Shown here in pieces: positions 2,287 through 34,448 of a DNA stretch of 64,000 nucleotides. The translations under genes were made by a program, and so were the position numbers. This DNA is from Halobacteriovoraceae bacterium (lineage in GTDB: Bacteria; Bdellovibrionota; Bacteriovoracia; Bacteriovoracales; Bacteriovoracaceae), in the NCBI GenBank assembly GCA_002711995.1, contig PASN01000008.1:1-64000 (forward strand), in the 5' to 3' direction. Each line of letters opens with the position of its first letter. Within the stretch, counting starts at the first letter, position 1. Under the pieces are notes generated by a model. It ran no database searches. It was not told the origin of the DNA and saw only the letters and a program-made list of their open reading frames with translations.

Positions 2287-3582
2287 TTGTTAAGGATAGC
2301 AAGGATATTAACATTTCTGTTTTCTTTCTCAGCGCTAGCGCAAACTAATGAAAGCGAATACTACCTACTAAAGGAGCAAAGAAATTCTTTAAGCTCTCAG
2401 GTATACTCCATTTACTTGAATCGCATCTGGGGACCAGATGGGATTATGAATGAAATTGCAAAACTAAATAATAAGACCCTAACTCAATTGGGCGAACTAA
2501 CGCCAGGTGAGAAAGTGTTAATCCCCTCACCCCATACTAGAAGCAAATACTGCAACTTTCTTATTACCACAGATAATTTGGTTACCTATAAGTACTTTGT
2601 GAAGAGTGGAAGCGAAAAACTGGAAAAACTTCGCACTAAGGGCAATCTTAATTGTGAAACCGAACAGAAAGATCCCTATGACAACTTTATTTATCTAGAA
2701 GAAAATCAGCTATTAAGCTCAATGATCTACTCCATCTACCTCACTCCCCTTTGGGATCCAGATGGGATTATGCAAGATGTTTATGACATCAACCACCTCG
2801 AAGATGAAACTGAAAAAGACAACAGCATTAAAAGTGTCTATATGATCCCGAAGCTCAAAAGAGCACAGGGATTCAACTATATTGAAGAGATGAATGGGCG
2901 GGTTAAACCTAGAGTTTATATAAATTCCACACCACAAAGAAAGGCACTTCTAAGACTTGCAGGTGGAAAGAAGAAAGAGAAGCCTAAAAAGAAAGAAAAG
3001 CTCATAAAAGATTCTAAATACAGTGTTCTAGGAGCACAAAGTATAAGGTATTCGGAAAGTGACATTTCAAATGTGACAGTGGATATTCTCAGCACTTATG
3101 GTGGCGCTTTTGACATGGAGCTCAAGCTTAAAAACGATGCATACATAAACTTCTACGCTCAGTTTGAATACTTTCCTGAGGTTAAAAATAGAGAAACGGA
3201 GAACAACTACCTCTTTGAAAAGAATGTAAGCTATGAAGACAAATGGCTTAAAGGTCTTAACTACACAGCTGGTTTCTCTGAACCTTGGTACATTCAAAAT
3301 ATCGAAAAAGACGTTTTTAGATTTGTTAGCTCCATAGTCCCTTATGCAGGGGTGGCCAAAAGAGGAAGCTTTGAATCTTTCTCGTTTCGAAGTGAAGTGG
3401 GACTTCTTCCACCACTTGACATGATTAATCAGGATTTAATTGAATTCGGCGCATTCTTTAAACAACACTTTCGTTTCAAACTATTTGGCCAAGACGTCTT
3501 AACTGGCGCCGATATGAAGTATATCAAATTTAAGAATCACACTGACCGCTACATCACCCTATTTGGTGGCCTTACTTTTTAA
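2287..3582 (+). CDS. Secreted protein with duplicated LysM-like N-terminal motif and beta-rich C-terminus
   Basis: The start is TTG at 2287 with an AAGGAAG ribosome-binding site 7-8 bases upstream. Residues 1-18 form a signal peptide ending ...SALAQ. An internal repeat follows: a segment with YSIYL..(I/L)W.PDGIM occurs near residue 39 and again near residue 147. The first copy is followed by a 'L-x-P-G-E-K-V-L-I-P' stretch that resembles the end of a LysM motif, so peptidoglycan binding is possible. A Lys-rich linker (about residues 225-245) precedes a C-terminal half of alternating hydrophobic/polar strands ending in Phe, as in outer-membrane barrels. It may anchor an outer-membrane barrel to the cell wall. 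No close family was recognised. Confidence 0.75.
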   Translation: MLRIARILTFLFSFSALAQTNESEYYLLKEQRNSLSSQVYSIYLNRIWGPDGIMNEIAKLNNKTLTQLGELTPGEKVLIPSPHTRSKYCNFLITTDNLVTYKYFVKSGSEKLEKLRTKGNLNCETEQKDPYDNFIYLEENQLLSSMIYSIYLTPLWDPDGIMQDVYDINHLEDETEKDNSIKSVYMIPKLKRAQGFNYIEEMNGRVKPRVYINSTPQRKALLRLAGGKKKEKPKKKEKLIKDSKYSVLGAQSIRYSESDISNVTVDILSTYGGAFDMELKLKNDAYINFYAQFEYFPEVKNRETENNYLFEKNVSYEDKWLKGLNYTAGFSEPWYIQNIEKDVFRFVSSIVPYAGVAKRGSFESFSFRSEVGLLPPLDMINQDLIEFGAFFKQHFRFKLFGQDVLTGADMKYIKFKNHTDRYITLFGGLTF

Positions 3583-7814: not shown

Positions 7815-10109
7815 TTACTGGTTGATGGCCTGTCTTCTCATGCCGTAAGTCCAATCTCCTGTGATTCCCCAATCAGTGACTAGGAGACCTAGTACAAGTC
7901 CCCAAGATCCAATTTTACCAAGAGGTTCACGACACATGATCTCAAACATGGCGATATTTAGCGCCATGGCCTTGATATCAAATAAGACGTTTCTTGCTCT
8001 GTAAAAGGCCCAACGGTCAGCGCCAGTGTTGCCTGTTTGAAGCAGTGGCAACTCTCCCATATTTGCCAAGTACATTCTCTCAGCAAGAAGCTCAAGCATC
8101 ACTTCCCTGCCCTCTTCAGTCTCAAGATCCTCTTGAGTAATCTTGAAGTCCTCATCAAGGCTCGAGAACGTGGATAGATTGAAGTATTGATCAAGAAGGT
8201 TTTTGGTGTTCGCCAATTTACTCTTCTCTTCTAGAAAGCTTAGCATTTCTTGGACGTCTTGCTCAAAAGTTGGACTATTCTTTAACTCTTCAAGCTCCTC
8301 TTCTATAACACTAGGCCTCACAGGCCCATCTTGATAGATTTGCTGAAAATATCGTCCGTATCCCTTAGTGCCAAAAAGCATGTCATAAGAGCCTGCGCTC
8401 ACCACATCGATCGCGCCAAACTTTATGTAGCCGTCTAGATATTTTGCCCAAAAGCCTTTATCTGTGTTCGTCACAATTAGGTTTGATGCGTATGTGAACA
8501 TAAAGCCCATGGCCATCTCTTGACCAAGCTTTTCCCAGAAGTACTGGTCTTCGTCTTTTTTATCCCAGTTTTTCGTAAGATAGAATATTGGCGTCCCAGT
8601 GAAACTTAGCGCCCATTTAAACCTCTTAAACTTCTTTTTGGCGGATTCAAGCTGAGCACTTCCCCCGCCATTACAGCCGTTTAATAGCTTGCTAAATATG
8701 CTTGCTTCTCCCGCGGCCTGAGCTCTCGCCCTTTTTGCAAGAGCTGGGGATAGCTTTACCTTCTTAACTTCCATTTTTATTTGAGTTAGTTTCTCTTCAT
8801 CGTATGGAAGCCCTCTTCTTTGCAGGTCTAGAATTTCATCCAGCTCTTTCATTAGCTTGTCTTTTTCCTGCAATTGAAAGTCTCTGGTGATGGACTTGTA
8901 GCGTCTCTCTTCCATATCCTTCACTTTTCTTCTTTGCACAATAAACTGCTTATGAGGCGGAAGCGCCTCATTTGGAATGAAGAATCGTTTATTTGATGGA
9001 TATTTATAGATTTTTTCCACATTCTTTAAAGCGTGCCTGACCTTATAGTTAGGAAGGTAGTCTAGATATACTAAATACTCTGTGAAGCGCTCAAAAGACT
9101 CTTGGTCTCTTCTTAAAGTCATTCCATGTTTCAATGCGAACTCTAGTTGTTCGTGGGTCAGTCTTGATTTTGTAAGCACTCTTTTATATTCAGTTTTTAA
9201 AAAGTTTGGAACATCCGCATCTGCTAGGATATTGCGAATGGCCTCTTCTCTACTCAATGTTTCAGGAGAATTTTTTAGAAATCTCTTATGAGGTTTAAAC
9301 CAAGACTCAACATTATACCACTTAGGACTATACTTTGCGTAGATTCCGTTAATGTTTTTCATTGCGGATCTAATTTTTAGAGCATGTATTTTTTTGCCAG
9401 CGTATTTTTCCAGGTATTCTAAATAAAGACGCAAAGTATTGAACGCATCTTTGTTATTTCTAAGATAAAGGCCACTATCAATGGCAAGTTTAAGATTGTC
9501 AGCACTTAGTCCCGAGCTTCTTAAAATTTGAGAGTACTCTTTTGCCATTCTAGGTCCAAGCTCACTCTCTTTAATAAGGTTATCTATTAGCTTTGCTTTT
9601 TTTGGATCAATGTTCACGTTACCCACAAGCATTTTTCTAACAGTCGAATAGGTGAAACTTGCGTTTTGAAATTCTTTATGAACAAAGACTCTTCTCAGAT
9701 CCTTGGCGGATACAAGCCCTGAGTCTTTCATCAGGTTTGCAAGCTTTGCAACGTTATCCACATAAACTTGATCTCTGGCCACAAAGCTAGACAGAGCGTC
9801 CAGAAATTTTATCCTTCCCTCGCGGGTTTTGAACTCAGGAGATGCCTGAATCGCGTCTAGATAGTTTTTTTCCAGAAATTCTTCATCCCAAAGACTAGTT
9901 TTTTTATAGCCCATGGTTTCCACAGGTATACGTCCATTAAGCAATTTAACGAAATTTATCTCGCAGGGGGATAGCTTCTTCTTGGACTCAAGATAGCTCT
10001 TCGGCACGGCCAGGCCTTTCTTCACAGCTTGCGGCACAGGTGTTCTTGCCCACGTTAAGTTGTTTGCAAACAGTGCGATCAGCAACGTTAAATTTAGGAA
10101 CTTGGTCAT
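7815..10109 (-). CDS. Large exported protein with an internal duplication
   Basis: The 764-residue product starts with a signal peptide (residues 1-21, ending WA-R). It is rich in Lys and Glu and mainly helical. Residues about 175-277 and 291-389 are a diverged tandem duplication: both contain a 'KEY..(I/V)L..S.L..(D/E)(N/Q)L' segment, a 'Y(L)xYL(D/E)' segment, a 'A(L/M)KN(I/V).(G/K)IY' segment and end in 'PHK(R/Q)F'. A Lys/Glu coiled-coil-like stretch lies around 405-470. Several weakly hydrophobic segments in the last 230 residues ('MAMGFMFTYAS', 'MALNIAMFEIM', 'WGLVLGLLVTDWG') could be membrane-associated. Function unknown; no catalytic motif was seen. It is likely monocistronic. Confidence 0.8.
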   Translation of the reverse strand: MTKFLNLTLLIALFANNLTWARTPVPQAVKKGLAVPKSYLESKKKLSPCEINFVKLLNGRIPVETMGYKKTSLWDEEFLEKNYLDAIQASPEFKTREGRIKFLDALSSFVARDQVYVDNVAKLANLMKDSGLVSAKDLRRVFVHKEFQNASFTYSTVRKMLVGNVNIDPKKAKLIDNLIKESELGPRMAKEYSQILRSSGLSADNLKLAIDSGLYLRNNKDAFNTLRLYLEYLEKYAGKKIHALKIRSAMKNINGIYAKYSPKWYNVESWFKPHKRFLKNSPETLSREEAIRNILADADVPNFLKTEYKRVLTKSRLTHEQLEFALKHGMTLRRDQESFERFTEYLVYLDYLPNYKVRHALKNVEKIYKYPSNKRFFIPNEALPPHKQFIVQRRKVKDMEERRYKSITRDFQLQEKDKLMKELDEILDLQRRGLPYDEEKLTQIKMEVKKVKLSPALAKRARAQAAGEASIFSKLLNGCNGGGSAQLESAKKKFKRFKWALSFTGTPIFYLTKNWDKKDEDQYFWEKLGQEMAMGFMFTYASNLIVTNTDKGFWAKYLDGYIKFGAIDVVSAGSYDMLFGTKGYGRYFQQIYQDGPVRPSVIEEELEELKNSPTFEQDVQEMLSFLEEKSKLANTKNLLDQYFNLSTFSSLDEDFKITQEDLETEEGREVMLELLAERMYLANMGELPLLQTGNTGADRWAFYRARNVLFDIKAMALNIAMFEIMCREPLGKIGSWGLVLGLLVTDWGITGDWTYGMRRQAINQ

Positions 10110-10917: not shown

Positions 10918-11925
10918 TTACTTCTTTTTAATCCAACTGGAAAGAGTTTCTCCTCTCTCCCATTCAAAGGCCGTCTTAATGATGAAGGCCAGATCGTCAT
11001 ATTTAGGCTGCCAGCCTATTGTTTTCTTTATCTTATCCGCAATGCTTACTAGCTCCGCAGGATCTCCCGCTCTTCGTGGCGCTTCCTCCACCGGGTAGTT
11101 TGCACCTGTCACTTCCTTTACAGAGTTTACGACTTCTCTTACAGAGAACCCATGTCCATAGCCACAGTTAAAGACTTCGCTTGTTTTGTTTTTAAACAAA
11201 AACTCTAGAGCGTCCAAGTGGGCCTGAGCTAGATCCATTACATGGATATAGTCCCTTACACCTGTTCCGTCCGCAGTCTCAAAATCTGTTCCAAAAATAT
11301 ATGTTTTTTCTCTTTTACCTGCGGCCGCCTCACAGTTTACTTTAATGAGATGGGTTGCCCCAGGAAATGCCTGCCCAATCTTCCCCTCAGGATCAGCTCC
11401 AGACACATTGAAGTATCTTAAGGCCACATAATTAAAGTTTTCATGGGCAATGGATGTGTCTTTAAGCATTAGTTCAGTCATAAGCTTTGACTGTCCATAT
11501 GGATTTATAGGCTCTTTTTTAGTCTCTTCGGTGGCCTTGCCTGTTTCTAGCATGCCATACACTGCGGCTGTGGAGGAAAAAATGAAGTTTTCCACATTAT
11601 GCTTCACACACATTTTTACGAGATTTAAGGAGTTTAGCGTGTTGTTGGTATAGTATTTTAGTGGATTCTCAACACTTTCAGGCACCACAATTGAGCCAGC
11701 AAAGTGCATAACACCATCAATTTTATTGTTGGCAAAGACCGACTCAAGAGTCTCAAGGTCTTCTAGATCACCCTCTACAAGCTCTCCATATGTTACAGCA
11801 TCCTTGAAACCAGTAGAAAGATTGTCGTAGACTATGACATTATGTCCCGCTTCTCCTAGAAGTTTAACTACGTGGGATCCAATGTATCCCGCTCCTCCAG
11901 TAACTAAAATTGTTTTATTACCCAT
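10918..11925 (-). CDS. galE: UDP-glucose 4-epimerase GalE
   Basis: GalE interconverts UDP-glucose and UDP-galactose (or the N-acetyl forms) and supplies sugar nucleotides for surface polysaccharides. The N-terminal NAD-binding motif is GGAGYIGSH (G10/G13/G16). The SDR active site is present as 'SSTAAVYG' and 'YGQSK' (Tyr-x-x-x-Lys). The length of 335 residues is normal. It is the first gene of a probable galE-queC operon and is divergent from the 11977 gene. It probably serves the polysaccharide region further right. Confidence 0.95.
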   Translation of the reverse strand: MGNKTILVTGGAGYIGSHVVKLLGEAGHNVIVYDNLSTGFKDAVTYGELVEGDLEDLETLESVFANNKIDGVMHFAGSIVVPESVENPLKYYTNNTLNSLNLVKMCVKHNVENFIFSSTAAVYGMLETGKATEETKKEPINPYGQSKLMTELMLKDTSIAHENFNYVALRYFNVSGADPEGKIGQAFPGATHLIKVNCEAAAGKREKTYIFGTDFETADGTGVRDYIHVMDLAQAHLDALEFLFKNKTSEVFNCGYGHGFSVREVVNSVKEVTGANYPVEEAPRRAGDPAELVSIADKIKKTIGWQPKYDDLAFIIKTAFEWERGETLSSWIKKK

Positions 11926-11976
11926 TATTTCCTCTTAGTGGCAAATCCAGTAAAAATCGGTTTTAATCACACTATT

Positions 11977-14706
11977 ATGAATAAGATTATTTTTCTATCC
12001 CTTTTGACGTTTTTAACCTTTGCGCACGCCCAGCTCGACACCATGCAAGACCGGCCTGAGCTTGATTGGCAAAAGATTGAAAACAAAAACTTTCAAGTCA
12101 TATTCCCAAGCTCCAATAAAGCTGAAGCAAATTATATAATGAACTTGCTTAACTATTATAGAGATCCAGTTAATGAGAGTTATGACGCCGAGCTCAGAAG
12201 CTGGCCATTGGTTCTAAGAACTGAAAGAGCAAGGCCAAATGGTTTTGTTGCCCTTATGCCAAGAAGGAGCGAGTGGTTTTCCCATGCTGCAATCACTCCC
12301 CTAATCTCATCACTTGAGTGGAATCAAAGTCTAGCGATTCATGAATACCGCCACATGGTTCAGTACGACTTTCTCAAAAGAGACAACCTTCAATATGGCT
12401 ACTATCTTTTTGGTGAGTTTGGACAGGCCGCACTTATGGCAGTCACCGCTCCCCAGTGGTATTTTGAGGGAGACGCAGTTTGGGCCGAGACAGTACTTTC
12501 AGATGCTGGCAGAGGAAGAAATCCTAGGTTTAGCGCAAGACTCAAGGCCATGGCCCTTAACAATCAAATCCCAACCTACGATGAATTTCTAGGCAGAGTG
12601 TACACAACAAAAATTCCTAATCACTATGTATTTGGCTACTTTCTTATAACCCGCGCATACAATGTCTATGGGAAAGATGTTTGGAAAGAGATTATCTCCA
12701 AGGCCGCAAGAACTCCTTTAAACCCATACACCTTCTACAACGCTTTCAAGTATGTCACAGGGAAAGAGTTTGAAGACTTTTTTGAAGAAACTTCAAGTGA
12801 GCTTAAAAATAGATGGAAGGGAGAGATAAGCAAAGAAAATGAAGTCTACACCCAATACGAACAACCCATTAAAACTCAAAGTGGTCTTTATTATCTTAAA
12901 AAAGATCTCGATAGCTTCTGGGCCATCTATAAAGACGAAAAGAAAATATCCACACTAAATGTGGAGCCAAGGTTTTCAAAGATAGACATTAAAAACGACA
13001 GACTTGTATACACCCAGTTTCTTCCTCACTACAGATATGGATACAAGGACTATGCAGATCTTTTTGTCATGGATCTGGTTACTAAGTCACAAAAGCAAAT
13101 AACCAAAGGGAGAAGACTTTTTCACCCTTCCCTCCATCCTCACAAGAACCAAATTCTGGCAGTGGAGTTTGCGGACAACTTTAAAGTCAGCATATTTGAC
13201 TTCGAAGGCAATAAACTTCAAGAGCTAAACCCAATAGACTTCACTGTGACAGAGGCGATCTGGCATGGGGATCATGCCATTGCCATAGCCTTTGATAAAG
13301 AGGGCATGAAGCACATTGGCGAGCTGGACTTGATTACAGGAAGATTTAGTCCAATGCAAAAAGCTCTAAGAAACAATGTGTACAATCTTAGACTTTCCAA
13401 AAATAGAGTGTATTTTGAGGCGGACGATGACGGCATAGTGAACGCTTTTTCCATGGATACAGAAACGGGAGAGCTTTACAGATGCACAAATGAAACGATT
13501 GCGGCCTTCGCCCCTTTTGCTCAAAATGATTCACTTTACTATGTTCAGGAAATTGGGAACGGCCAAAGAGTTAATGCTACAGGACTTAACTGTTCTCCAG
13601 CAGGGGATCTTCATACCAACTACTTGGGCAACTCCCCTAGTTCTGACTACCATAATGCAGAAATGATAAAGGTGGAAAACTTTGAAAAGCTTCATGATAG
13701 CAAACATGAATCAACACAATACAATGAATTGCATGGCGCTTTTAAACCCCACTCTTGGAACCTTATTGGAGGCAGAGGTCTTCAGCTCGGCGTTACCACC
13801 CAAAACTATTTAAATACAATCTCAGCGAATGCGGCGATTGGAGAGGGAGTGAACAAGAATGGGCTCTTTGCCAATCTCTCTCTTAATTATAAAAAATACT
13901 ACCCTATCCTTTCCTTGAACATGGATTACCAAGAAAGAGCAAACGACATCGATCAATGGTCGGAGTCATTTGTGGGTGCGGGAATCACACTTCCTTACAC
14001 ATACAGACACGGACTCTTTAACTCATTCAGCGCATTCACTGTAAATGCAGGAAACCTTGAGGTGTCTGAGAGAAAAACAGCTCGAAGCTATGAGCTTGAC
14101 GATGAAGGCCTTCTTCTATCAAGCATGTCTTTTAGCACAAGTTTTTTAAAAGACAGAAGATTTAGAGAGCTGCTTCCAAGTCTTGGAGCAAATTTTCAGG
14201 CCCAATATGTCGACGCAAGCGCTTCCGAGAGCGACTCCTTCTCAAGCTATTTAGGCTTTGCAAAACTAAGCGTTTTCACACCAGGAGTTAGAGTTAATCA
14301 TGGATTTAAAATTGATTTAAGCTCTGAATACCGCCAGGCCGATCCTTTTTCCTACCGAATCGTCTCTCCCGCCGAAAGTGTAAACAACTATGCTTTCTCC
14401 AGAGGATATGAGTTTGAATACGTTTCTGACTGGCAGAAGGCCTCACTCAACTACATGATGCCTATTGCCTATCCAAACTACGCTTTTGACAGGTGGGTGT
14501 ATGTTAATAGAGTCTACACAAATCTCTACTTTGATCATACTAAGACCAGCAATCCACAGAGTCTAAACTCTCTGGGTGCAGAATTGTTCTTTGAGACTTT
14601 GTCTTTAAGAAAAATTCCTCTGACCTATGGGCTTAGATACATCAACACTCTTGAGGACAATCAAAACTTATTTGAGTTCTTTTTCAATTTGGATTTGGTG
14701 TATTAG
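11977..14706 (+). CDS. Outer-membrane protein with peptidase-MA (HExxH) domain, beta-propeller and barrel
   Basis: I place the start at the ATG at 11977 because residues from there form a classic signal peptide (MNKIIFLSLLTFLTFAHA-Q). The frame is open to a GTG at 11938, which would add 13 residues before the signal. The N-terminal domain has HEYRH followed about 35 residues later by 'WYFEGDAVWAE', the gluzincin signature (HExxH + WxxEG) of the peptidase-MA family, suggesting a zinc metalloprotease. The middle part has TolB-like propeller repeats ('FHPSLHPHKNQILAVEF' and similar). The last 300 residues have alternating aromatic strands and end 'FFFNLDLVY', typical of an outer-membrane barrel. 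Protease activity is inferred from motifs only. Confidence 0.82.
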   Translation: MNKIIFLSLLTFLTFAHAQLDTMQDRPELDWQKIENKNFQVIFPSSNKAEANYIMNLLNYYRDPVNESYDAELRSWPLVLRTERARPNGFVALMPRRSEWFSHAAITPLISSLEWNQSLAIHEYRHMVQYDFLKRDNLQYGYYLFGEFGQAALMAVTAPQWYFEGDAVWAETVLSDAGRGRNPRFSARLKAMALNNQIPTYDEFLGRVYTTKIPNHYVFGYFLITRAYNVYGKDVWKEIISKAARTPLNPYTFYNAFKYVTGKEFEDFFEETSSELKNRWKGEISKENEVYTQYEQPIKTQSGLYYLKKDLDSFWAIYKDEKKISTLNVEPRFSKIDIKNDRLVYTQFLPHYRYGYKDYADLFVMDLVTKSQKQITKGRRLFHPSLHPHKNQILAVEFADNFKVSIFDFEGNKLQELNPIDFTVTEAIWHGDHAIAIAFDKEGMKHIGELDLITGRFSPMQKALRNNVYNLRLSKNRVYFEADDDGIVNAFSMDTETGELYRCTNETIAAFAPFAQNDSLYYVQEIGNGQRVNATGLNCSPAGDLHTNYLGNSPSSDYHNAEMIKVENFEKLHDSKHESTQYNELHGAFKPHSWNLIGGRGLQLGVTTQNYLNTISANAAIGEGVNKNGLFANLSLNYKKYYPILSLNMDYQERANDIDQWSESFVGAGITLPYTYRHGLFNSFSAFTVNAGNLEVSERKTARSYELDDEGLLLSSMSFSTSFLKDRRFRELLPSLGANFQAQYVDASASESDSFSSYLGFAKLSVFTPGVRVNHGFKIDLSSEYRQADPFSYRIVSPAESVNNYAFSRGYEFEYVSDWQKASLNYMMPIAYPNYAFDRWVYVNRVYTNLYFDHTKTSNPQSLNSLGAELFFETLSLRKIPLTYGLRYINTLEDNQNLFEFFFNLDLVY

Positions 14707-15317
14707 TGGAAGAAACTCTTTTAGCTCTTAGTCTTGGACTGTCTGGGGGCATATCTCCAGGACCTATGCTCGTTCTGGTGCTTACCCAGACCATACAGTA
14801 TGGACTTAAAGAAGGACTAAAGGTAACTCTAGGTCCACTCATCTCAGACGCTCCGATAATCATTGCGGCCTACTACTTCACAAATCAAATACCAGTCAAT
14901 CTTCTTGATTGGCTCTATCTTCCTGGTGGCCTCTATTTGATTTATATAGCAAAGCATTCATGGGCAATAGACTTTGATTCAATGGATGTGCAAAAACCAG
15001 TGGCAAATTCAATAAGAAAGGGAGTGGTAACCAATGTTCTAAACCCAGCTCCTTATCTTTTCTGGCTAACCATTGGCGCTCCGATAATTATAAAAATGCA
15101 GAGTGCTTCCAAGATGGGCATGTTTTTTTTAGCTTTCTACGCGGCACTTTTGGGAACAAAGGTACTTATAGCGTACCTAATCTCTGTTGGAAGAAATAAC
15201 CAGAACGCTTTAAAGTATATTTCAAAAACGCTGGCCGTAATTATCTGGGGTTATGGATTTTACTTCTTGTTTCTTTGGGTGAAGATGATTTGGGAAGGCC
15301 TGGGCCTTCCCTATTAA
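14706..15317 (+). CDS. LysE/RhtB-family amino-acid exporter
   Basis: This 203-residue polytopic membrane protein has the LysE N-terminal signature 'GLSGGISPGPMLVLVLTQTIQYG' in its first helix and about six hydrophobic segments. Family members export amino acids or related metabolites across the inner membrane. The substrate cannot be told. The GTG start at 14706 overlaps the previous TAG stop by one base (TAGTG), which suggests translational coupling. It converges directly on the S8 protease gene. Confidence 0.85.
   Translation: MEETLLALSLGLSGGISPGPMLVLVLTQTIQYGLKEGLKVTLGPLISDAPIIIAAYYFTNQIPVNLLDWLYLPGGLYLIYIAKHSWAIDFDSMDVQKPVANSIRKGVVTNVLNPAPYLFWLTIGAPIIIKMQSASKMGMFFLAFYAALLGTKVLIAYLISVGRNNQNALKYISKTLAVIIWGYGFYFLFLWVKMIWEGLGLPY
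15292..15311. terminator. Hairpin at a convergent junction
   Basis: GGGAAGGCC at 15292-15300 and GGCCTTCCC at 15303-15311 form a strong hairpin that lies inside the last codons of the LysE gene and just before the stop of the convergent S8 protease. The flanks have only short T-runs, so a bidirectional terminator is likely but not certain. Confidence 0.45.
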
Positions 15318-24036: not shown

Positions 24037-26067
24037 TTAGTAAAACGCCCAGCTTCCTCCAAGATTCACCCTACCTCCAGCTTGTTCATCCTCAGTGTAT
24101 CCAAAGGTGATTGTTGGGCCTGTTTTGTCTTTTTTGAGCCAGCTTTTTGAACCCAAAACTTCGGTCACCGCATATGAACCAGGCGCAAATGTTGGCATAT
24201 CTTTAGTTATTGGTGCTTGGTGCCTAGCTTCAATGCTGTAGTTTCTTTTAGTGTCCTCAAGAGCTGCTCGAACTGCATAGTAGTCTCCAATATTTCTGGT
24301 GTAGACTGCAGCATCTAAAGCAGCGTTTAAGTTTTCAGTGGCCTGATATGAAATTCCAGACTTATAGTTAATACCGTTTAAAATAATTCCCTTTCCTGAG
24401 AGTGTGTTCTCAGCTTGGGCCTGTGCATCTTTATTCCAAATAAATGTGTCAGCTTCAACTCTTACATAGGCCCCCACTTCATCGCCCCTATACCTAGCTT
24501 CAGCACCAGGGGTCAAGGTAACCGATGGTTCAGGCATAACACCTGTTTCCACTTTTTCTCCAGTGCTCTTATCCACAACGACACTTTTTGATAGTTGAAC
24601 TTCAGCTCTTAGGTCTAAGTTTGCCGCCACCGAAAACTTGTCAGTCGCCTTATAAGTATAAGTTGGGTTTTGTCTCATATACCCATAAAAGCCCTGAGTG
24701 CTCACTGTTTTATATGCTGTTTCACCATCTGTTTTATAAAAAGAAGCCCCATACTCGATGCCGTTTACATCCGAGTTGAAAGTGACCGCGGAAACCTTTG
24801 TGCCATCAGAGAGTTCACCAGTAACGATGGCGCCTTCACCAAAGTCTGTGCTTGTGTACACTTTGTTAATATTGTAATTTTTAGAGATATCGTTATTGGT
24901 TTTAAAGCCTGATGCTTCTCTTAACATCTTGCCAAGCTCTGTGGGCATTTGCAGCACAGCTTTCCCCTTGGCATCGTAAACTCTATAAGCAATACCAGTC
25001 ACTGGCATTCTTCCGCCTTGCTTCAGTTGAGCGACACCTTTGTTTGAATCATCAACCTGAGTTTCATTATAATTAATTTTATATAACTTGGACGGATCAT
25101 TGGGGTCAACAATCGCAAAAGTTTGGTGAGAGCCCTGTGCCGCTTGATATCCAACTCTATAAATATTTTTTGGATCGATTCCAAGCTCCATGGCAATCTC
25201 GGACTGAGCGGCGACAATGTCTCTACATGTTCCGCCTTCTTCTCCAGTCCCTAGAGTTGAAAATAATTGCTCTATGCTTACGACACTTAAATCACTGGAG
25301 TTGGCCCTTTCTTCCGAGTAAGTACTCAAAAACTTTCCACCTAATTGAGAAAGAAAATCAAGTTTTTCCTCGTAAGAAAGCTTGTCTTTTAAAACTCCAA
25401 TACTCTCTTTCCATTTCGAAGGATTTTGAATTGAATCTGACACGGCCTGTTCAACGCCAAGAATCGACTCAGGGATATCCAAATCAAACTTAACTTTTAT
25501 GTACTTTTTCATGTGACTTACTTTCTCTTCGCTTGAAAGCGTGCCCCATTTAGCTTTAATGTTTTTACGGTATTTGAGATAATGACGTACTAGGACATTG
25601 TAGTCACCCACCCATGCTTGATCGTTATCCCTCATAAATTGAGTATATCTGCTGTAGCTAAAGTCTGAGAGCTCTCTTTGCAACTGATCACCAGTGTTAT
25701 AGCTTGCGTAAGCTCCAACAACCCACTTTCTTTTGGATGCAAGCTCTTTAATTTCTTCCCTGTCTTTTTGAGCATCTGAATACTGACCGTTAACACAGTT
25801 TACATCAACATCTACTGTGGCAGCATTTTTATCCATTGATACTTTATTGTCTGCGTTAACGATTTGCCTAATTTCATCTTGGTAGTGAGTATAGGCCACA
25901 AGTCTTTCGGTTCCTTCAGTGTCTTGTTTAAAATCATCACTTACTGGAGCAAGCTTTTGAACAACTTGATGCGTCTCTTCGGCCAAAACCGCGATCCGCC
26001 CCAAGTCTGTCGTGGCCGCATATATTGAGGTAGAAAGAGATAAAAATACGACCGATGTTTTAAACAT
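24037..26067 (-). CDS. Exported protein with a transglutaminase-like core and beta-rich C-terminus
   Basis: The 676-residue product has a signal peptide (residues 1-17, ending YAA). Around residues 273-323 the order 'GGTCRDIVAAQ' (Cys about 278), 'GSHQTFAIVDPND' (His about 313, Asp about 320) matches the Cys-His-Asp layout of transglutaminase-like cysteine enzymes, which cross-link or hydrolyse peptide amides. Before it is a helical region with 'YASYNTGDQLQREL'. The last 300 residues are strand-rich with repeated 'Y.A.(D/E)' segments and end 'GGSWAFY', as in an outer-membrane barrel. Enzymatic function is inferred from motif order only. Confidence 0.72.
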   Translation of the reverse strand: MFKTSVVFLSLSTSIYAATTDLGRIAVLAEETHQVVQKLAPVSDDFKQDTEGTERLVAYTHYQDEIRQIVNADNKVSMDKNAATVDVDVNCVNGQYSDAQKDREEIKELASKRKWVVGAYASYNTGDQLQRELSDFSYSRYTQFMRDNDQAWVGDYNVLVRHYLKYRKNIKAKWGTLSSEEKVSHMKKYIKVKFDLDIPESILGVEQAVSDSIQNPSKWKESIGVLKDKLSYEEKLDFLSQLGGKFLSTYSEERANSSDLSVVSIEQLFSTLGTGEEGGTCRDIVAAQSEIAMELGIDPKNIYRVGYQAAQGSHQTFAIVDPNDPSKLYKINYNETQVDDSNKGVAQLKQGGRMPVTGIAYRVYDAKGKAVLQMPTELGKMLREASGFKTNNDISKNYNINKVYTSTDFGEGAIVTGELSDGTKVSAVTFNSDVNGIEYGASFYKTDGETAYKTVSTQGFYGYMRQNPTYTYKATDKFSVAANLDLRAEVQLSKSVVVDKSTGEKVETGVMPEPSVTLTPGAEARYRGDEVGAYVRVEADTFIWNKDAQAQAENTLSGKGIILNGINYKSGISYQATENLNAALDAAVYTRNIGDYYAVRAALEDTKRNYSIEARHQAPITKDMPTFAPGSYAVTEVLGSKSWLKKDKTGPTITFGYTEDEQAGGRVNLGGSWAFY

Positions 26068-26374
26068 ATAATCACCTTAAATAGTCTTCTCTTTCTCTTC
26101 GGCTTAAACATCTAAATTTATTAGTAACTTTGCATACAATCTGAAAAAAAGGTTTCAATATAGAAAATTTTAAAATAAGGCTAACACCTTGATTAGACTT
26201 GCTAAGTTTCCTTATTGAAAAGGCCTTAAAACCCCAAAGTATTTAATGATTCTTTATATGAAATTTAAGCTATATAGCACTTTTTTGAAAATTTTGGATT
26301 CCAGAGAAAAATGATAGGGATTTATCTTCCCACTAATTATTCAAAATGCTCACATGATCGAGTTGAAGGTCGAA
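26068..26374. other. Intergenic region, no recognised feature
   Basis: These 307 A+T-rich bases separate the 3' end of fic from the start of the 24037-26067 gene, which is also on the minus strand. They should hold the latter's promoter. A run AAGCTTCGCTTTAAGATTCG lies at the fic stop. I see no gene, and no convincing fifth copy of the helicase 3'-end repeat. Confidence 0.4.
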
Positions 26375-27601
26375 CTAAAGCTTCGCTTTAAGATTCGATT
26401 TATTTATTCGGTAAAAAAACTTCTTGCCCTGTTTAATCTCATCAAGGAGTCCTTTACCTAGCAAGTTTTTCAGCTCCCTCCGTGCTATTTCACGAGACTT
26501 TCCAATATCGGAAGAGTATTCCTCTATAGATATTACTTTGTGTTTATTCAAGCTTAAACGCTGAAGCAATGAAGTTTGATTCCGGGTGAGGTTTTCTCTA
26601 TTCTCTAAAACTGAAATTTTCATTAAAAACTCTAACTTTCTTTCTACCTTGCCAACTGCAGTGACAAGAGAGTCTAAGCAAAAATCTATAAAGTAAGTAA
26701 TATCTAAGTCATGCTCTTTGACCAAATCAAAAGACTTCACATACCTTTTACCGTGTGACTTTAAGTCTGCTGATACAGATAAAAGTTCCACAAATTTCAA
26801 ATCGTTTTTAATCGATTTAAAGTAAAAAAGAGTTCTTGCAGTTCGTCCGTTTCCATCAAAAAATGGATGAATATAAGCTGTGAAATAATGAAGAAGTATT
26901 CCCTTTATCAATCCATGCAAAAAACGGGGGTGATTCGTCGTTAGCTCAATTGCTTCGTCTAGTGCCTCATTTATCTTTTTATGAGGTATTCCTTCATGCT
27001 TTCCCACGTATACGGTATCGTTTCGAAATTTTCCACAAAAGTTTGCATCATCTCCCAATAGCGTATTATTTGAAACGATTTCGTGAATCTTTAGAATTAA
27101 TCCAGTTGAAATGGGTAGAGCAGCATTGTCTTTAATCCACTTCATCGCATTGTAATTGTTGATTAACATCCACTCATCTTTATTTTTTGGACTTTCACCA
27201 GATGCGATTAAGGCCTTGGCCTTTGAACGAGTGCTATTCGCACCTTCATAGATAGCTGAAGTTACGGCCTCCTCAACTGATGCATTCGATATAAATTCGT
27301 TTTTAAACACTCTTTGGGTGCTAATTATTGCAAATAAATTACTTCCAGTTGTTTCTATGTACTGAATTTTTTTTAATATAGAATCAGAGGGGTAAAACCA
27401 AAACTTTTTATCTATGGATTTGAAAAATAACGGAATCGATCCCATTTTTCGATAGGTTTGAATTTTTTCCTTGAGTTGTGGCCAACTTCTTTTTGATTCA
27501 CCAATTTTGTCCAAACGATACTTGATATCCTCTAAAGGAACATACCTTTCCTGGGTATACTTCAACCACAACTCAGTATTTAAAAACTCAAACTCAGACA
27601 T
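26375..27601 (-). CDS. fic: Fic-family AMP-transferase with C-terminal winged helix
   Basis: The 408-residue protein has the Fic motif 'HPFFDGNGRTAR' (about 245-256), which uses the His to transfer AMP to hydroxyl side chains of target proteins. Upstream, 'SAIYEG' (about 113-118) fits the [S/T]xxxE[G/N] inhibitory helix of self-inhibited class II Fic proteins. The C-terminal 100 residues look like a winged HTH ('ISIEEYSSDIGKSREIARRELKNLLGKGLLDE'), giving possible DNA binding and autoregulation. AGGAA precedes the ATG. It is the outermost gene of the toxin-antitoxin island and has no separate antitoxin gene beside it. Confidence 0.92.
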   Translation of the reverse strand: MSEFEFLNTELWLKYTQERYVPLEDIKYRLDKIGESKRSWPQLKEKIQTYRKMGSIPLFFKSIDKKFWFYPSDSILKKIQYIETTGSNLFAIISTQRVFKNEFISNASVEEAVTSAIYEGANSTRSKAKALIASGESPKNKDEWMLINNYNAMKWIKDNAALPISTGLILKIHEIVSNNTLLGDDANFCGKFRNDTVYVGKHEGIPHKKINEALDEAIELTTNHPRFLHGLIKGILLHYFTAYIHPFFDGNGRTARTLFYFKSIKNDLKFVELLSVSADLKSHGKRYVKSFDLVKEHDLDITYFIDFCLDSLVTAVGKVERKLEFLMKISVLENRENLTRNQTSLLQRLSLNKHKVISIEEYSSDIGKSREIARRELKNLLGKGLLDEIKQGKKFFYRINKSNLKAKL

Positions 27602-27930: not shown

Positions 27931-28001
27931 GGGTAAAGATCCTATGTCAAACCCACAGGATGACCTACGATTATTACACTCAAGGTGTGTGACATAGACC
28001 C
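27931..28001. repeat. Inverted repeat abutting helicase fragment D
   Basis: CTATGTCA (27942-27949) pairs with TGACATAG (27990-27997), and outer GGGT (27931-27934) with ACCC (27998-28001). The right end falls on the stop codon of fragment D. The rest of 27778-27930 has no recognised gene. It may be a terminator-like structure or mark the insertion boundary. Confidence 0.4.
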
Positions 28002-28095
28002 TAACCATTTACCAGATACTCAAAGTCCTCATAGGATAGTCCAGTTTTAGCGAATGCGGCTAATTTGTTATTGAAGTTCTCCTTAATGAATAAAA
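28001..28095 (-). pseudogene. Displaced 3' end of the SNF2 helicase gene (copy D)
   Basis: Read on the minus strand, this piece encodes the helicase tail: the core A-A-F-A-K-T-G-L-S-Y-E-D-F-E-Y-L-V is identical to the C-terminus of the 30684-33008 protein, followed by N-G and a TAG stop. Homology fades about 31 codons upstream of the stop. There is no start codon or domain. It is the most distal of three such fragments and is in the same orientation as the intact gene. Confidence 0.85.
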
Positions 28096-28116: not shown

Positions 28117-28458
28117 CTATTCTTCTATATTGTAAGTTGGTATGGAGTTATCTGGATAAACCCTATGATTTAGCATTCTATTATCTATAAGATCTAGCAA
28201 GTAAACGATAGTTTGCTCTTCTTTTATAACTGTTTTCATAAATACACGATATCTTCCATTAGAAAATGGCCAAGATTGATCTCCAGTGCTTGGATGCGGT
28301 GCTGGAGTGGTAGGATTTTGCTTTATAAACTCTTTAACTCGATCATGCTCATCATGAAACTTCTGAACCAACTCAATAGATTCAGTTTGTTCATAAATAA
28401 AATTTTGAATTTCTAAAAGTCTCTCGACGTAGGCCTTTGTCGTAAGAAGCTTAGTCAT
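28117..28458 (-). CDS. RelE/ParE-like toxin
   Basis: The 113-residue protein follows a Phd-type antitoxin gene with a 4-base ATGA overlap. It has the general order of RelE/ParE-like toxins: N-terminal helices ('YVERLLEIQNFIYEQTES'), then strands with 'NGRYRVFMKTVIKEEQTIVYLLDLIDNRML' near the C-terminus. RelE family toxins cut mRNA on the ribosome and ParE toxins poison gyrase; which applies is not clear. The N-terminus is longer and more helical than in the E. coli members. Together with 28455-28709 it fills the interval between helicase fragments D and C. Confidence 0.7.
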   Translation of the reverse strand: MTKLLTTKAYVERLLEIQNFIYEQTESIELVQKFHDEHDRVKEFIKQNPTTPAPHPSTGDQSWPFSNGRYRVFMKTVIKEEQTIVYLLDLIDNRMLNHRVYPDNSIPTYNIEE

Positions 28459-28709
28459 TTTGTTTTTAAATGAGACATTAGCTCATCACCGGAGGGAACG
28501 TTCTGAGTTTCACCATCAAGAATATCAGACATTGATAAAAGTCTTCGTTGCAACGACATGATCTCCATTTGCATTTTGTTGTATTCAGTTTCATTTATAA
28601 GAATGTAACTTTCTCCAGAACGTCTTTGGATTCTTATGGGCTCGCTTGTGGCCAGTTCTAAGTAGTCTTTCATTTCGGCCCTAAGTTTTTTTGGATTCGT
28701 GATTTCCAT
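28455..28709 (-). CDS. Phd/YefM-family antitoxin
   Basis: The 84-residue protein has the family layout: 'KKLRAEMKDYLELATSEPIRIQRRSGESYILINETEYNKMQ' with the DNA-binding N-terminal domain and a C-terminal toxin-binding helix. It precedes the toxin, as usual for this type. A perfect palindrome lies 31 bases upstream. The start is ATG 28709 with GAGGTAT ahead. Confidence 0.85.
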   Translation of the reverse strand: MEITNPKKLRAEMKDYLELATSEPIRIQRRSGESYILINETEYNKMQMEIMSLQRRLLSMSDILDGETQNVPSGDELMSHLKTK

Positions 28710-28819: not shown

Positions 28820-28895
28820 TCACTTACCAACTAGATACTCAAAGTTCTCATAAGATAGTCCAGTTTTGGCGAATGCCGCTTTTTGATTTAAGGCC
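28820..28895 (-). pseudogene. Displaced 3' end of the SNF2 helicase gene (copy C)
   Basis: On the minus strand this encodes A-A-F-A-K-T-G-L-S-Y-E-N-F-E-Y-L-V-G-K and a TGA stop, the helicase tail with one Asp to Asn change. About 20 codons upstream of the stop a net two-base loss breaks the frame, and homology ends near 28895. An imperfect hairpin (28773-28797) lies just left of it. It separates the Phd/RelE-like pair from the DUF4160 pair. Confidence 0.8.
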
Positions 28896-28952
28896 TTTCC
28901 ATTTAAATTGTGAAAGTTTTTAATGCAATAAGAAGGAGGAAGAGCTAGTCTT

Positions 28953-29201
28953 CTAGCCCTCAGTACCAGTGCTTTTAAAAACCTCTTGTTCAAGCTTTTT
29001 CAGTCTACTTTCAAAAGAGTTATCAATAAGAACTGATCTTAGTATATCATCCAAAACAATATTGTATGGTCTTCCTTCGGATTTGGCTTTTGCCTTTAGG
29101 GCCCTCACCACGTCAACACTTAAAAAAGGACTGATTCTGGCCTTAGCCGATTTAGGATTATCAAGTGCCTCGTTAATTTCATTAAGTAATTCATTTTCCA
29201 T
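28953..29201 (-). CDS. CopG/BrnA-like ribbon-helix-helix antitoxin
   Basis: From ATG 29201 the product has 82 residues: MENELLNEINEALDNPKSAK..., then 'ISPFLSVDVVRALKAKAKSEGRPYNIVLDDILRSVL', which resembles the ribbon-helix-helix segment of BrnA/CopG antitoxins. The frame is open to 29228, but that would overlap the upstream gene. The start is 2 bases after the stop of the DUF4160 gene. Function as antitoxin is inferred from fold and partner. Confidence 0.65.
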   Translation of the reverse strand: MENELLNEINEALDNPKSAKARISPFLSVDVVRALKAKAKSEGRPYNIVLDDILRSVLIDNSFESRLKKLEQEVFKSTGTEG

Positions 29202-29203
29202 AA

Positions 29204-29461
29204 TTATTCTCCGAAAATTTCCAACCAAAAATCATTCAAAATATCTGAGTTTGACCTTACAAGTTTTAAAAGTGGTCCAATTTCATGATCCTTTAACCCA
29301 TAATTTTTTTTAATAGTGAAGTTATCAAGCCATACTTCGCAAAGCCTTTGATTTTTAAAGTCAATATGGATATGTGCACGAAGTCCTTCATCCTGATAGA
29401 AATAAAACTTTAGCAAATTAATTTTAAGGGCAACATGCTTTACCATGTACATATAATACAC
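29204..29461 (-). CDS. DUF4160-type probable toxin
   Basis: The 85-residue protein shows the DUF4160 pattern 'FYFYQDEGLRAHIHIDF', a conserved 'E-V-W-L-D-N' strand and a terminal 'D-F-W-L-E-I-F-G' helix. Genes of this family are usually paired with small DNA-binding proteins and are regarded as toxin-antitoxin modules; the biochemical activity is not established. Here it precedes the CopG/BrnA-like gene by 2 bases. The exact start is uncertain because Met1, Met4 and Met6 are all possible. Confidence 0.7.
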   Translation of the reverse strand: MYYMYMVKHVALKINLLKFYFYQDEGLRAHIHIDFKNQRLCEVWLDNFTIKKNYGLKDHEIGPLLKLVRSNSDILNDFWLEIFGE

Positions 29462-29543: not shown

Positions 29544-29681
29544 TTATCTCCCTACAAGGTATTCGAAGTCCTCATAGGATAGTCCAGTTTTTGCGAAGGC
29601 CGCTTTTTTGATATTGAAGACCTTTTCGCTAAATAAGCCTTCAATTGCGAAGGTTTTGCACTCCTTCAAGAATTCTACTTT
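29544..29681 (-). pseudogene. Displaced 3' end of the SNF2 helicase gene (copy B)
   Basis: This is the longest displaced copy, 46 codons including the stop, and it matches 30684-30821 without gaps. Of the last 37 amino-acid codons, I count 12 synonymous and 4 amino-acid-changing differences; the last 21 have 9 synonymous and none changing. The end V-G-R and TAA stop are kept. Homology stops at an in-frame TAG at 29682-29684. The pattern is that of a gene end diverged under purifying selection, not of a decaying copy. Confidence 0.9.
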
Positions 29682-29831
29682 CTAGCTTACCGGTAGTACT
29701 CAATTTCTTTACAACATTCCGAACCGCAATGAGGTCACATGATTTCAAGCTCTTAGTTATATAAAGTTTAATCACTCTTTGCATATTATCTCTGACAATC
29801 AATTGTAAACTGAGTGTACAGATGTTAAAAT

Positions 29832-29865: not shown

Positions 29866-30198
29866 ATGGGTAAACCAATACGGCCCACAAAAAAGACTGA
29901 TAGAGAGCTCTTCAGACTTATAAATAAGATGCTTTCTAACGGCGAGTACTTTTTTAAAAGGCACGCCAAATCACGTCAAAAAGATCGGGCTATAAGGGAC
30001 TTAGAAGTTCTGGATATATTAGAGGGAAAACGCAATAGAAACCGACACCGAAATAAAAGAAAAGATAAATATGAAATTGGAAATGAAGACTGGAACTACT
30101 GTATTGAAGGAAACAATTTAGATAAGAAGAAGATGAGAATAATAATTTCCTTTGAAAACGGCATGATTCCAATAATAACCGTTATGTGGATTGAGTAA
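29866..30198 (+). CDS. DUF4258-like probable toxin
   Basis: The 110-residue basic protein contains 'FFKRHAKSRQKDRAIRDLEVLDILEGKRNR', which fits the 'H-A-x-x-R-x-x-x-R-x-I' motif of DUF4258/MqsR-like small toxins, followed by a beta-strand region ('KMRIIISFENGMIPIITVMWI'). An AGGAA site lies 6 bases before the ATG. It is followed 13 bases later by an HTH protein, the toxin-first order known from mqsRA and higBA. RNase activity is a guess from family resemblance. Confidence 0.65.
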   Translation: MGKPIRPTKKTDRELFRLINKMLSNGEYFFKRHAKSRQKDRAIRDLEVLDILEGKRNRNRHRNKRKDKYEIGNEDWNYCIEGNNLDKKKMRIIISFENGMIPIITVMWIE

Positions 30199-30211
30199 TT
30201 AAAGAGTCACT

Positions 30212-30667
30212 ATGAAAACGAAAACCGCAAAAAATTATACCTACAATGGTCTTGGCTTCCCTATTAAGCTTCAAAATATAACCTTGATGCTAATAGATGA
30301 TGAGTGGTCTCCAAGGATTGATATTAGAAAAATAGCTGTAAACGCAATTAGAGAACTTCCCTATCAAAAAGAAAGGCTGACAGGCCACCAGATTAAATTC
30401 ATAAGAACATACTTTGAGATGTCTCTTAGGGAGTTTGCATCACAAGTTGTAAGTGAGTCCCACAACGCAGTTGCCAAGTGGGAAAGATTTGGAGCCGAAC
30501 CAACAAACATGGATGAAAATATTGAGAGCATGCTTAGGCTCTACATCATTGACAAGGTTTCCACTAAAACCAAAAAACAGGCACAGGAATTTATAAAATC
30601 ATTCAGGATCATTAGAGAAATGAGCTTCATAAAAAAGACCCCAAAGCCTCTTTTGATAAGGGCCTAA
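30212..30667 (+). CDS. HTH antitoxin-like regulator (MqsA/HigA type)
   Basis: The 151-residue protein has a helix-turn-helix at about 49-91: 'LTGHQIKFIRTYFEMSLREFAS' followed by 'SHNAVAKWERFG', resembling the DNA-binding half of MqsA/HigA-like antitoxins. The N-terminal 45 residues would bind the toxin; the zinc cysteines of MqsA are absent. Its stop lies inside a terminator hairpin. With 29866-30198 it occupies the interval between fragment B and the intact helicase 3' end, on the strand opposite to the other modules. Confidence 0.7.
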   Translation: MKTKTAKNYTYNGLGFPIKLQNITLMLIDDEWSPRIDIRKIAVNAIRELPYQKERLTGHQIKFIRTYFEMSLREFASQVVSESHNAVAKWERFGAEPTNMDENIESMLRLYIIDKVSTKTKKQAQEFIKSFRIIREMSFIKKTPKPLLIRA

Positions 30668-30683: not shown

Positions 30684-30821
30684 TTACCTTCCCACAAGGT
30701 ACTCAAAGTCTTCATAAGATAGTCCAGTTTTTGCAAATGCCGCTTTTTTGACATTGAAGGCCTCTTCGCTGAATAGGCCCTCAATTGCTAAGGTTTTACG
30801 CTGTTTTAAGGTTTCAATCTT
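30684..30821 (-). repeat. Helicase 3'-end direct repeat, intact copy A
   Basis: This is the coding end of the helicase gene, and it recurs at 29544 (copy B), 28820 (copy C) and 28001 (copy D), all in the same orientation. Distances between stop codons are 1140, 724 and 819 bases. On the stop side all copies lose similarity right after the stop codon. On the other side they lose it at different points (B longest). Confidence 0.9.
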
Positions 30822-33020: not shown

Positions 33021-34448
33021 TCAAGCGTGACGCAGAAGCTTTAAGACATTTTGGCGCTTGGATCCTTTGGCCTGGGGTGCAAGCTCACTATTGTCTTCAT
33101 AAAAGAAAGATCCAAGTCCACTCTCAAGAGCACTTATTATGTATTTAAGCTCCACCTGATGTAGCGCAATTCTTTCATCATCAAAATTTAATGAAAACTC
33201 AATGACGCTTTCATTTTGATCAGCTAGTTCGATATTAATACCAAGCTTGTCTGGTTCCACCCACTCGCATTCAATCTCGAGGCTTTGATGGTATTTGTCA
33301 TTAAATAGATCAAGCCAGTAGTGAAAGCTTCCCCAATCAATGTCTTCTGGGAATTTAAGTTTTAAATCCCCTTTAAGTCCTCGATTTCTCCAAAACTTCA
33401 TCTCTTCTTTATAAGAGCTTCTAAATAAGGTCTTACTAGGCCTGTGATAATAAGAAGCGTTTCCTATATAGACACAGTCATTAAAATCATCAAAGGGAGT
33501 GACTTCCAAATATAGATCACGATCTCCTTGCACCAGTCTCCACTCAGACTTTCCAAGATTTTCAAAGCTTCGAACTTCCAAAATAGAGCTTAAATCTTCA
33601 AAGAGATCTTCAGCAAGATAGACCTTTTTTTGATCATCCAGCACTCTACTTAATACATTTTTTAAAAAGTTATTCTCATAGCGATCCCCGTAAACTCCCA
33701 GAAACTCAAAAGGACTAAAGTCCAGCTCAGAGACATCAAAGCTTAGCTCTTCAAAAAACTCTGGCCCAATCAGAGCGGAATACGGGTGAAAGTAGATATC
33801 TTTTAGAGAAACCAGAGTTTGATCAGAAAACAACAAGAAGCTATGGCCTAGTTGTGTTTGATTCCAATAAGCGCGACTTCCAAGGACATTTTCAAAAAAC
33901 TCATGAAACCTCTCATGAATGTCAGTTTCAAGAATTAATGTGGGGTACGGCTCATCCCCGTGAGAGACAAATCTTTCATAAAGATATTCATCTACCACAT
34001 GATAATCAGTCTTTACTCTTTCTGCTTCTATGTGAAAAAGTCTTTTCATTCCACTGGATAGCTCAGTTTCAACATCCAAAACCACCCCAACAAACTCAAT
34101 CTTGCGCCCGTCAATAAACGAAGAGACCACATTTTGCACAGCATCCACATCCACTTTAATTTCCCAAGGATGAGGAAGTTCATCATTTAAAAGCAGATGA
34201 AAAAACGCCATGGATCGATCAACAAGTTGAGTATTGCCACCAGAGCACACAACAGATCCACTTTTAAAGATTTTTACAGCAGCAACATCACCCTTCTCAT
34301 TTTGAAGAACACCCAAAAGAGCATCATCATGTCTGTGAAAGAACCAATTAAACTTAGAATGATTGGCAGCAAGCCACTGCCTAAAGTTTGCCTTATTAAA
34401 AGGATATTTGAACTCGGATTTAAAAGCTTCAAATTGAACTTTCTTCAT
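33021..34448 (-). CDS. Probable N-terminal part of the SNF2 helicase, separated by one TGA
   Basis: The 475-residue protein has no motif that I recognise. It is acidic, with alternating hydrophobic strands and Phe/Tyr-rich segments, like the poorly conserved SNF2-associated N-terminal regions of bacterial helicases. Its TGA stop (33021-33023) is in the same frame as the helicase start at 33008, with 12 bases (four codons) between. The ATGA at its start overlaps the O-antigen ligase stop, so it is translationally coupled to a polysaccharide gene. Whether the two are separate subunits, a split gene or a readthrough product cannot be settled from sequence. Confidence 0.65.
   Translation of the reverse strand: MKKVQFEAFKSEFKYPFNKANFRQWLAANHSKFNWFFHRHDDALLGVLQNEKGDVAAVKIFKSGSVVCSGGNTQLVDRSMAFFHLLLNDELPHPWEIKVDVDAVQNVVSSFIDGRKIEFVGVVLDVETELSSGMKRLFHIEAERVKTDYHVVDEYLYERFVSHGDEPYPTLILETDIHERFHEFFENVLGSRAYWNQTQLGHSFLLFSDQTLVSLKDIYFHPYSALIGPEFFEELSFDVSELDFSPFEFLGVYGDRYENNFLKNVLSRVLDDQKKVYLAEDLFEDLSSILEVRSFENLGKSEWRLVQGDRDLYLEVTPFDDFNDCVYIGNASYYHRPSKTLFRSSYKEEMKFWRNRGLKGDLKLKFPEDIDWGSFHYWLDLFNDKYHQSLEIECEWVEPDKLGINIELADQNESVIEFSLNFDDERIALHQVELKYIISALESGLGSFFYEDNSELAPQAKGSKRQNVLKLLRHA

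Follow-up and report, generated by a model that had tools for sequence, protein, structure and literature searches.

The 3′ end of a helicase gene has probably been replaced several times by small incoming cassettes, mostly toxin-antitoxin pairs

Results

Organization of the helicase locus

We analysed the first 64,000 nt (positions 1-64,000 of the forward strand, hereafter the window) of contig PASN01000008.1 from a Halobacteriovoraceae bacterium, whose genome assembly (GCA_002711995.1) comprises 23 contigs with a completeness of 96%. Reading outward from a SNF2-type helicase gene, the locus consists of the present gene end A, a DUF4258/HTH cassette, a displaced helicase end B, a DUF4160 pair, end C, a Phd/YefM pair, end D, a Fic gene and end E (Table 1). 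Ends A-D are four copies in register at the helicase stop codon, while E, a fifth, follows the Fic gene. The cassettes measure about 0.6-1.6 kb and hold little beyond a toxin-antitoxin pair or the Fic gene. Pfam scores for DUF4160 and Fic were above the curated cut-offs and those for Phd/YefM, DUF4258 and the MqsA-like protein below them; on such weak family similarity, cassettes 1-3 are putative toxin-antitoxin pairs. A search of the window with six integrases of related loci detected no integrase similarity, and the window contains neither a tRNA nor a tmRNA gene.

Table 1. Coordinates of the helicase array and of the tmRNA locus of the same genome. Positions refer to the window unless locus L178 is named.
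Feature	Position	Strand	Remarks
SNF2-type helicase core ORF, 774 aa	30684-33008	-	Pfam SNF2-rel_dom and Helicase_C; orthologs in phylum
Present gene end A, last ~40 codons	30684-30823	-	Part of helicase core ORF
Cassette 1	29866-30667	+	DUF4258 protein 29866-30198; HTH protein 30212-30667, weakly similar to MqsA-type antitoxins
Displaced helicase end B	29544-29683	-	81% nt identity to A over 140 nt
Cassette 2	28953-29461	-	DUF4160 protein 29204-29461 (Pfam); small partner 28953-29228
Displaced helicase end C	28820-28898	-	In frame, ends ...KAAFAKTGLSYENFEYLVGK stop
Cassette 3	28117-28709	-	Phd/YefM-like antitoxin 28455-28709; candidate toxin 28117-28458, no family
Displaced helicase end D	28001-28092	-	In frame, ends ...LAAFAKTGLSYEDFEYLVNG stop
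Cassette 4, Fic-family protein	26375-27601	-	Pfam Fic; PADLOC SoFic
Displaced end E, decayed, outer edge of array	26322-26357	-	SCEHFE*LVGR stop
Most conserved stretch of gene end, candidate exchange site	30712-30734; also 29572-29594, 28848-28870, 28029-28051	-	
tmRNA gene	L178 15201-15573 (G000:C1)		
Displaced tmRNA 3′ end, 70 nt	L178 14503-14572		

The SNF2 helicase family is spread across the phylum, where its orthologs are one open frame of about 1200-1400 aa. In the window an in-frame TGA (33021-33023) splits the gene into the core ORF and an ORF of 475 aa that carries no Pfam domain (33024-34448), and the interrupted gene may, judging by this reading frame, not be fully functional.

Silent and amino-acid-changing differences between the ends

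The initial annotation held that A and B differ mostly at synonymous sites, and its counts were reproduced exactly. Across the last 37 codons there are 16 nucleotide differences, which comprise 12 synonymous and four changed codons (L>F, E>K, A>V and V>I), and across the last 21 codons there are nine synonymous codons and no changed one, the 21-codon cut having been chosen in that annotation after the data had been seen. By the NG86 method, the 37 codons give a dS of 0.82, a dN of 0.047 and a ratio of 0.06, and the 21 codons a dS of 1.36 with a dN of 0. We simulated decay from an ancestor equal to A, with B evolving neutrally and 0-25% of the changes falling on a purely synonymous A branch. 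A neutral B should carry 8-10 changed codons in 37 and 4.6-5.7 in 21, against the observed four and none; the simulated probability of at most four changed codons in 37 was 0.0012-0.017, and that of none in 21 was 5e-5 to 2e-4. Placing half of all changes on the selected branch raised these probabilities to 0.22 and 0.002, respectively, but such a scenario is not predicted by an equal clock. The upstream 16 codons contain all four changed ones (three synonymous and four nonsynonymous there versus nine and zero in the last 21; Fisher P = 0.019), so that the strong signal is confined to the last ~21 codons. The weaker constraint upstream may perhaps reflect a variable linker, a part that varies among orthologs too.

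The same pattern extends to the outer copies. Pairwise dS among A-D over the last 20-21 codons was 0.5-2.3, values near saturation and drawn from few sites, and dN/dS was 0-0.15 in all pairs except C-D (0.36-0.40); C and D compared with A and B gave 0.02-0.15, as in the A-B pair. Both C (stop at 28820) and D (stop at 28001) read in frame to their stop codons. High dS combined with low dN/dS in all A-D pairs fits poorly with local duplication followed by unselected decay, and it lends support to the claim, made from A and B, that the fragment or the present end had been under selection before it arrived.

End E had been missed in the initial annotation. It consists of 36 nt right after the Fic stop codon, 26 of which are identical to B, while the best of 546 random 307-nt intervals reached 23. 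When 54 nt were compared, similarity to A, C and D was not significant and that to B was borderline, whereas the last 30-42 nt gave significant matches, so that the assignment of E concerns its stop-proximal part only. Relative to A, the number of changed residues in the last 11 codons is zero in B, two in C, two in D and three in E, including a stop; this outward rise in decay would fit insertion beside the gene each time, though four points prove little.

Relatives of the helicase end

If the copies came from different lineages, they were predicted in the initial annotation to cluster with different species; a single cluster of closest relatives with dN/dS near 1 was named there as evidence to the contrary. 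The first expectation was not borne out: A-D form one clade in the helicase-end tree (support 0.975), with no close ortholog. The copies therefore do cluster together, but their dN/dS is low rather than near 1, which leaves the reading standing. Since A-D are one clade and no close ortholog is at hand, the tree cannot separate donors, and the single clade indicates that the ends derive from one unsampled group of close relatives. Among 369 phylum genomes there was no close helicase tail, the best match reaching 67% aa identity over 126 aa; GTDB contigs, in which six loci were found, gave helicase tail matches of only 43-46%, and viral contigs and plasmids yielded no close relative of the helicase. 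Nor did any of these four collections provide a second genome with the array or with a close helicase end. The KAAFAKTGLSYEDFEYLVG motif is absent from the ortholog tails, and downstream of the orthologs we saw no convincing displaced ends within 1.5 kb (6 kb for a few). Both same-genus genomes (81-82% complete) lack a detectable helicase ortholog and gave zero matches to the flanking gene at 24037-26067, so that no empty site was located in them; an excised circle was not seen either. It is from the synonymous divergence, rather than from a donor sighted directly, that we infer transfer of ends between species.

A conserved stretch within the ends

Within the most conserved stretch of the gene end (Table 1) lie 14 nt, AAAACTGGACTATC, that are identical in A-D. 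This sequence has four exact matches in the genome and none elsewhere in 129 family genomes, where the core of the end gave only coincidental matches with three mismatches. A 15-nt block of this stretch is identical at 14-15 of 15 positions in all six A-D pairs and lies at or near each pair's maximum likeness. The 14 nt encode a conserved protein motif as well, and the excess of invariant third positions is no more than suggestive. The longest exact in-register run is 17 nt between A and B and 14 nt between A and D. Sequence on both sides of the conserved stretch is gene-like in B, with homology to the gene continuing for ~24 codons further upstream; site-specific exchange in its simple form does not require such an extent, whereas homologous exchange would produce it. 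We know of no integrase for the helicase-end site.

Comparable gene ends in this and other genomes

Locus L178 (G000:C1) of this genome carries the tmRNA gene and, separated from it by a DUF4160/DUF2442 pair (14573-15156), a displaced tmRNA 3′ end (Table 1). The two tmRNA ends differ at only four positions, which make up two compensated T-stem pairs (C-G to T-A and C-G to G-C). Compensated pairs do not come from decay, which points to two working tmRNA genes of different lineages. Beyond the displaced end there is a tyrosine integrase (11502-12665), and ~16 nt at 5136 may represent a third tmRNA end.

Similar cassettes sit at the ends of other genes. In G018 (L152), the 3′ end of a BrnA gene is separated by a cassette-3-like pair from a 67-nt copy of itself, and the two ends are 97% identical, with two differences that are both synonymous. 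In G022 (L158), a recombinase-like gene end and its decayed, displaced copy flank a DUF4160 pair. The logic that cassettes carry their own gene end, as proposed for the helicase locus in the initial annotation, applies independently at the tmRNA and BrnA ends and is thereby strengthened.

Further repeats were observed elsewhere. A cassette-3-like pair in G256 is flanked by identical 106-nt direct repeats (L156, 2251-2356 and 4418-4523) and is apparently recent. In G240, two toxin-antitoxin pairs lie between a tRNA-Leu gene and repeats of ~70 and 305 nt (L157, 4431-8090), the repeats including a tRNA-like 3′ end. Two more loci belong to the genome under study: at L177 (G000:C21, 6222-7714) a tyrosine integrase, 35% related to the fpg integrase, and an HTH gene adjoin tRNA-Arg, and at L076 (G000:C5, 2864-2972 and 4754-4861) a 109-nt direct repeat of 85% identity takes in the beginning of a small lipoprotein-like gene and may represent a displaced 5′ end.

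Relatives of the cassettes

Relatives of cassette 1 (73-83% aa identity) occur in four other genera (G016, G078, G028 and G143) and in G016 and G028 adjoin fragments of the start of fpg (mutM); cassette 1 had no plasmid match. Relatives of cassette 3 (68-70% aa identity) occur in G102, G083 and G088, with a decayed one in G080, and in all four genomes the stretch with the relative also holds a tyrosine integrase, an HTH_17 protein and fpg. In G083 (L147), an island with cassette-3 cargo is delimited by 23-nt repeats, one at the start of fpg and the other at a distance of 6.3 kb (3150-3172 and 9454-9476), and G080 (L151) has a similar repeat pair at 10524 and 1623, in which a second fpg-start repeat bounds the island. 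The cargo is thus the same in ordinary islands and, without an integrase, at the helicase end; none of the fpg-island relatives of the cassette families in other genera lies at a helicase site. The loci at which the fpg start is accompanied by a tyrosine integrase and a cassette-3 pair are L146, L147, L148 and L151. Locus L116 of G016 has three fpg-start fragments (4478, 8641 and 10546) with toxin-antitoxin genes between them, two of the fragments sharing 155 nt at 88%.

Discussion

Taken together, these observations make serial insertion of cassettes that bear a gene end well supported, and the full reading, a tandem accretion of integrase-less cassettes at the helicase 3′ end that resembles cis-mobilizable elements (CIMEs), is one that we consider likely. 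The 3′ end of the gene would act as an insertion hot spot where small integrase-less cassettes pile up successively. Each newcomer would come with a helicase 3′ end of its own, derived from a related lineage, which would be joined in frame to the gene body and take the place of the previous end, pushing that end downstream. Accordingly read, B, C, D and E would be former working ends, those farther from the gene having been displaced earlier. Strand exchange would take place in or near the invariant AAAACTGGACTATC, most likely by a tyrosine recombinase supplied in trans.

The agent of exchange is the part of this scheme that meets the strongest competitor. Homologous recombination would introduce a circle or transformed DNA carrying a cassette and ~140 nt of helicase end, by a single crossover or through longer flanks, duplicating the end each time. 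An array with no detected integrase and an end B that resembles the gene on either side of the core speak for it, as do the duplicated ends elsewhere, which vary in length from 55 to 155 nt. However, exact in-register runs of at most 17 nt (A-B) and 14 nt (A-D) offer little for RecA-type exchange, related cargo travels in integrase islands with 23-nt repeats, and integrases classically use tmRNA and tRNA 3′ ends, which serve as sites here too. The invariant 14 nt, the block that is best in all pairs, the shortness of exact identity, the shared cargo and the tmRNA site lead us to favour an integrase in trans by a modest margin, and homologous recombination is a serious though less probable account.

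A further possibility is that the array was built whole in another species and was imported once with its helicase end, no insertion having occurred in this genome. The two same-genus genomes, incomplete as they are (81-82%), have no detectable helicase ortholog, as an import would predict. Serial insertion would nevertheless still be required somewhere, and the tmRNA mini-island displays the same process at another locus of this very genome, for which reasons we regard a single import as rather unlikely.

Another alternative, already put forward for restriction-modification genes, is insertion with a long target duplication, after which the distal copy would decay free of selection. It too would bring together selfish-type cargo and duplicated flanks, and the 67-nt repeat of G018 (97%) and the 106-nt repeat of G256 (100%) both look recent. 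Yet this explanation is improbable, since a neutrally decaying B should carry about twice the observed four changed codons in 37 (~8-10) and 4.6-5.7 instead of none in 21, and compensated tmRNA pairs are incompatible with decay. For the helicase and tmRNA loci, the silent and compensated differences disfavour it. That the displaced ends are kept in place by selection, as a functional small ORF or site, rather than being relics is the least credible account, because, although C and D retain frame and stop, decay grows with distance from the gene, a stop codon immediately upstream of the homology closes the frame of B, which has no obvious start codon of its own, and E lacks the core.

Preferring serial insertion of end-bearing cassettes, we can regard displaced ends as receipts of past insertions, in which silent or compensated differences would reveal a foreign lineage even without the donor. 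If the cassettes move without a recombinase of their own, they would be among the smallest laterally moving selfish units, rewriting host gene ends as they go. More speculatively, minimal toxin-antitoxin cassettes of Bacteriovoracaceae-like bacteria could constitute a recombinase-free class whose ports are the 3′ ends of unrelated genes (the helicase, tmRNA, BrnA and the recombinase-like gene are the port genes proposed), so that core genes are continually re-ended; we put this forward as a tentative idea that is more apt to fail than to hold.

Several known systems share parts of this arrangement. At icd of E. coli, phage 21 and e14 bring an alternative 3′ end that replaces the end of the resident protein gene, but, unlike the helicase array, these are prophage-type elements with their own integrase. 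Islands at dusA similarly supply the present gene end and leave the original end at their far side, though they use the 5′ end of the gene, 21-bp sites and intact integrases (PMC4482086); the fpg islands are closer to them than the helicase array is. Integron cassette arrays are marked by attC hairpins and IntI, and the repeats of the helicase array are coding gene ends.

CIMEs have lost their integration and transfer genes while keeping attL and attR, and accrete in tandem at gene ends, for example at the 3′ ends of streptococcal fda, rpmG and rpsI (PMC5704250; PMC7563491). The helicase array resembles them in having integrase-less cargo between att-like repeats, arranged in tandem at a protein gene's 3′ end, and in that a newcomer would enter at a site that includes the gene end. 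The window shows no integrase, its cassette genes are toxin-antitoxin-like or Fic, and direct repeats A-E lie in the helicase 3′ end, their role as recombination sites being putative. The array differs from CIMEs in having no ICE or IME in tandem, in cassettes of only ~0.6-1.6 kb and in repeats of up to 80-140 nt that have diverged at silent sites. At the helicase site we detected no integrase-bearing element standing in tandem with the cassettes, and for this reason we claim likeness to CIMEs and not membership.

The ssrA islands of Dehalococcoides also stand in tandem downstream of tmRNA, with a displaced ssrA 3′ end marking the limit of each, and 15 of them are described as lacking an integration module (PMC3146451). 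They differ from the present case in their 20-bp repeats, serine recombinase and reductive dehalogenase cargo, and the portion of that account drawn on here reports no displaced ends with compensated pairs. Long target duplication by restriction-modification genes (Nobusato et al. 2000, cited in PMC3031569) is alike in its selfish-type pair, long direct repeats and absence of a recombinase, but, as that work is represented in the citing article, the repeated sequence duplicates the local target, whereas the helicase ends, with a dS of 0.5-2.3 and few residue changes, are not copies of one local sequence and appear to stem from diverged lineages. Compared with all of these systems, the helicase array is best described as a variant, in which the distinctive features are very small toxin-antitoxin cassettes, a helicase gene as target and long ends that record past selection.
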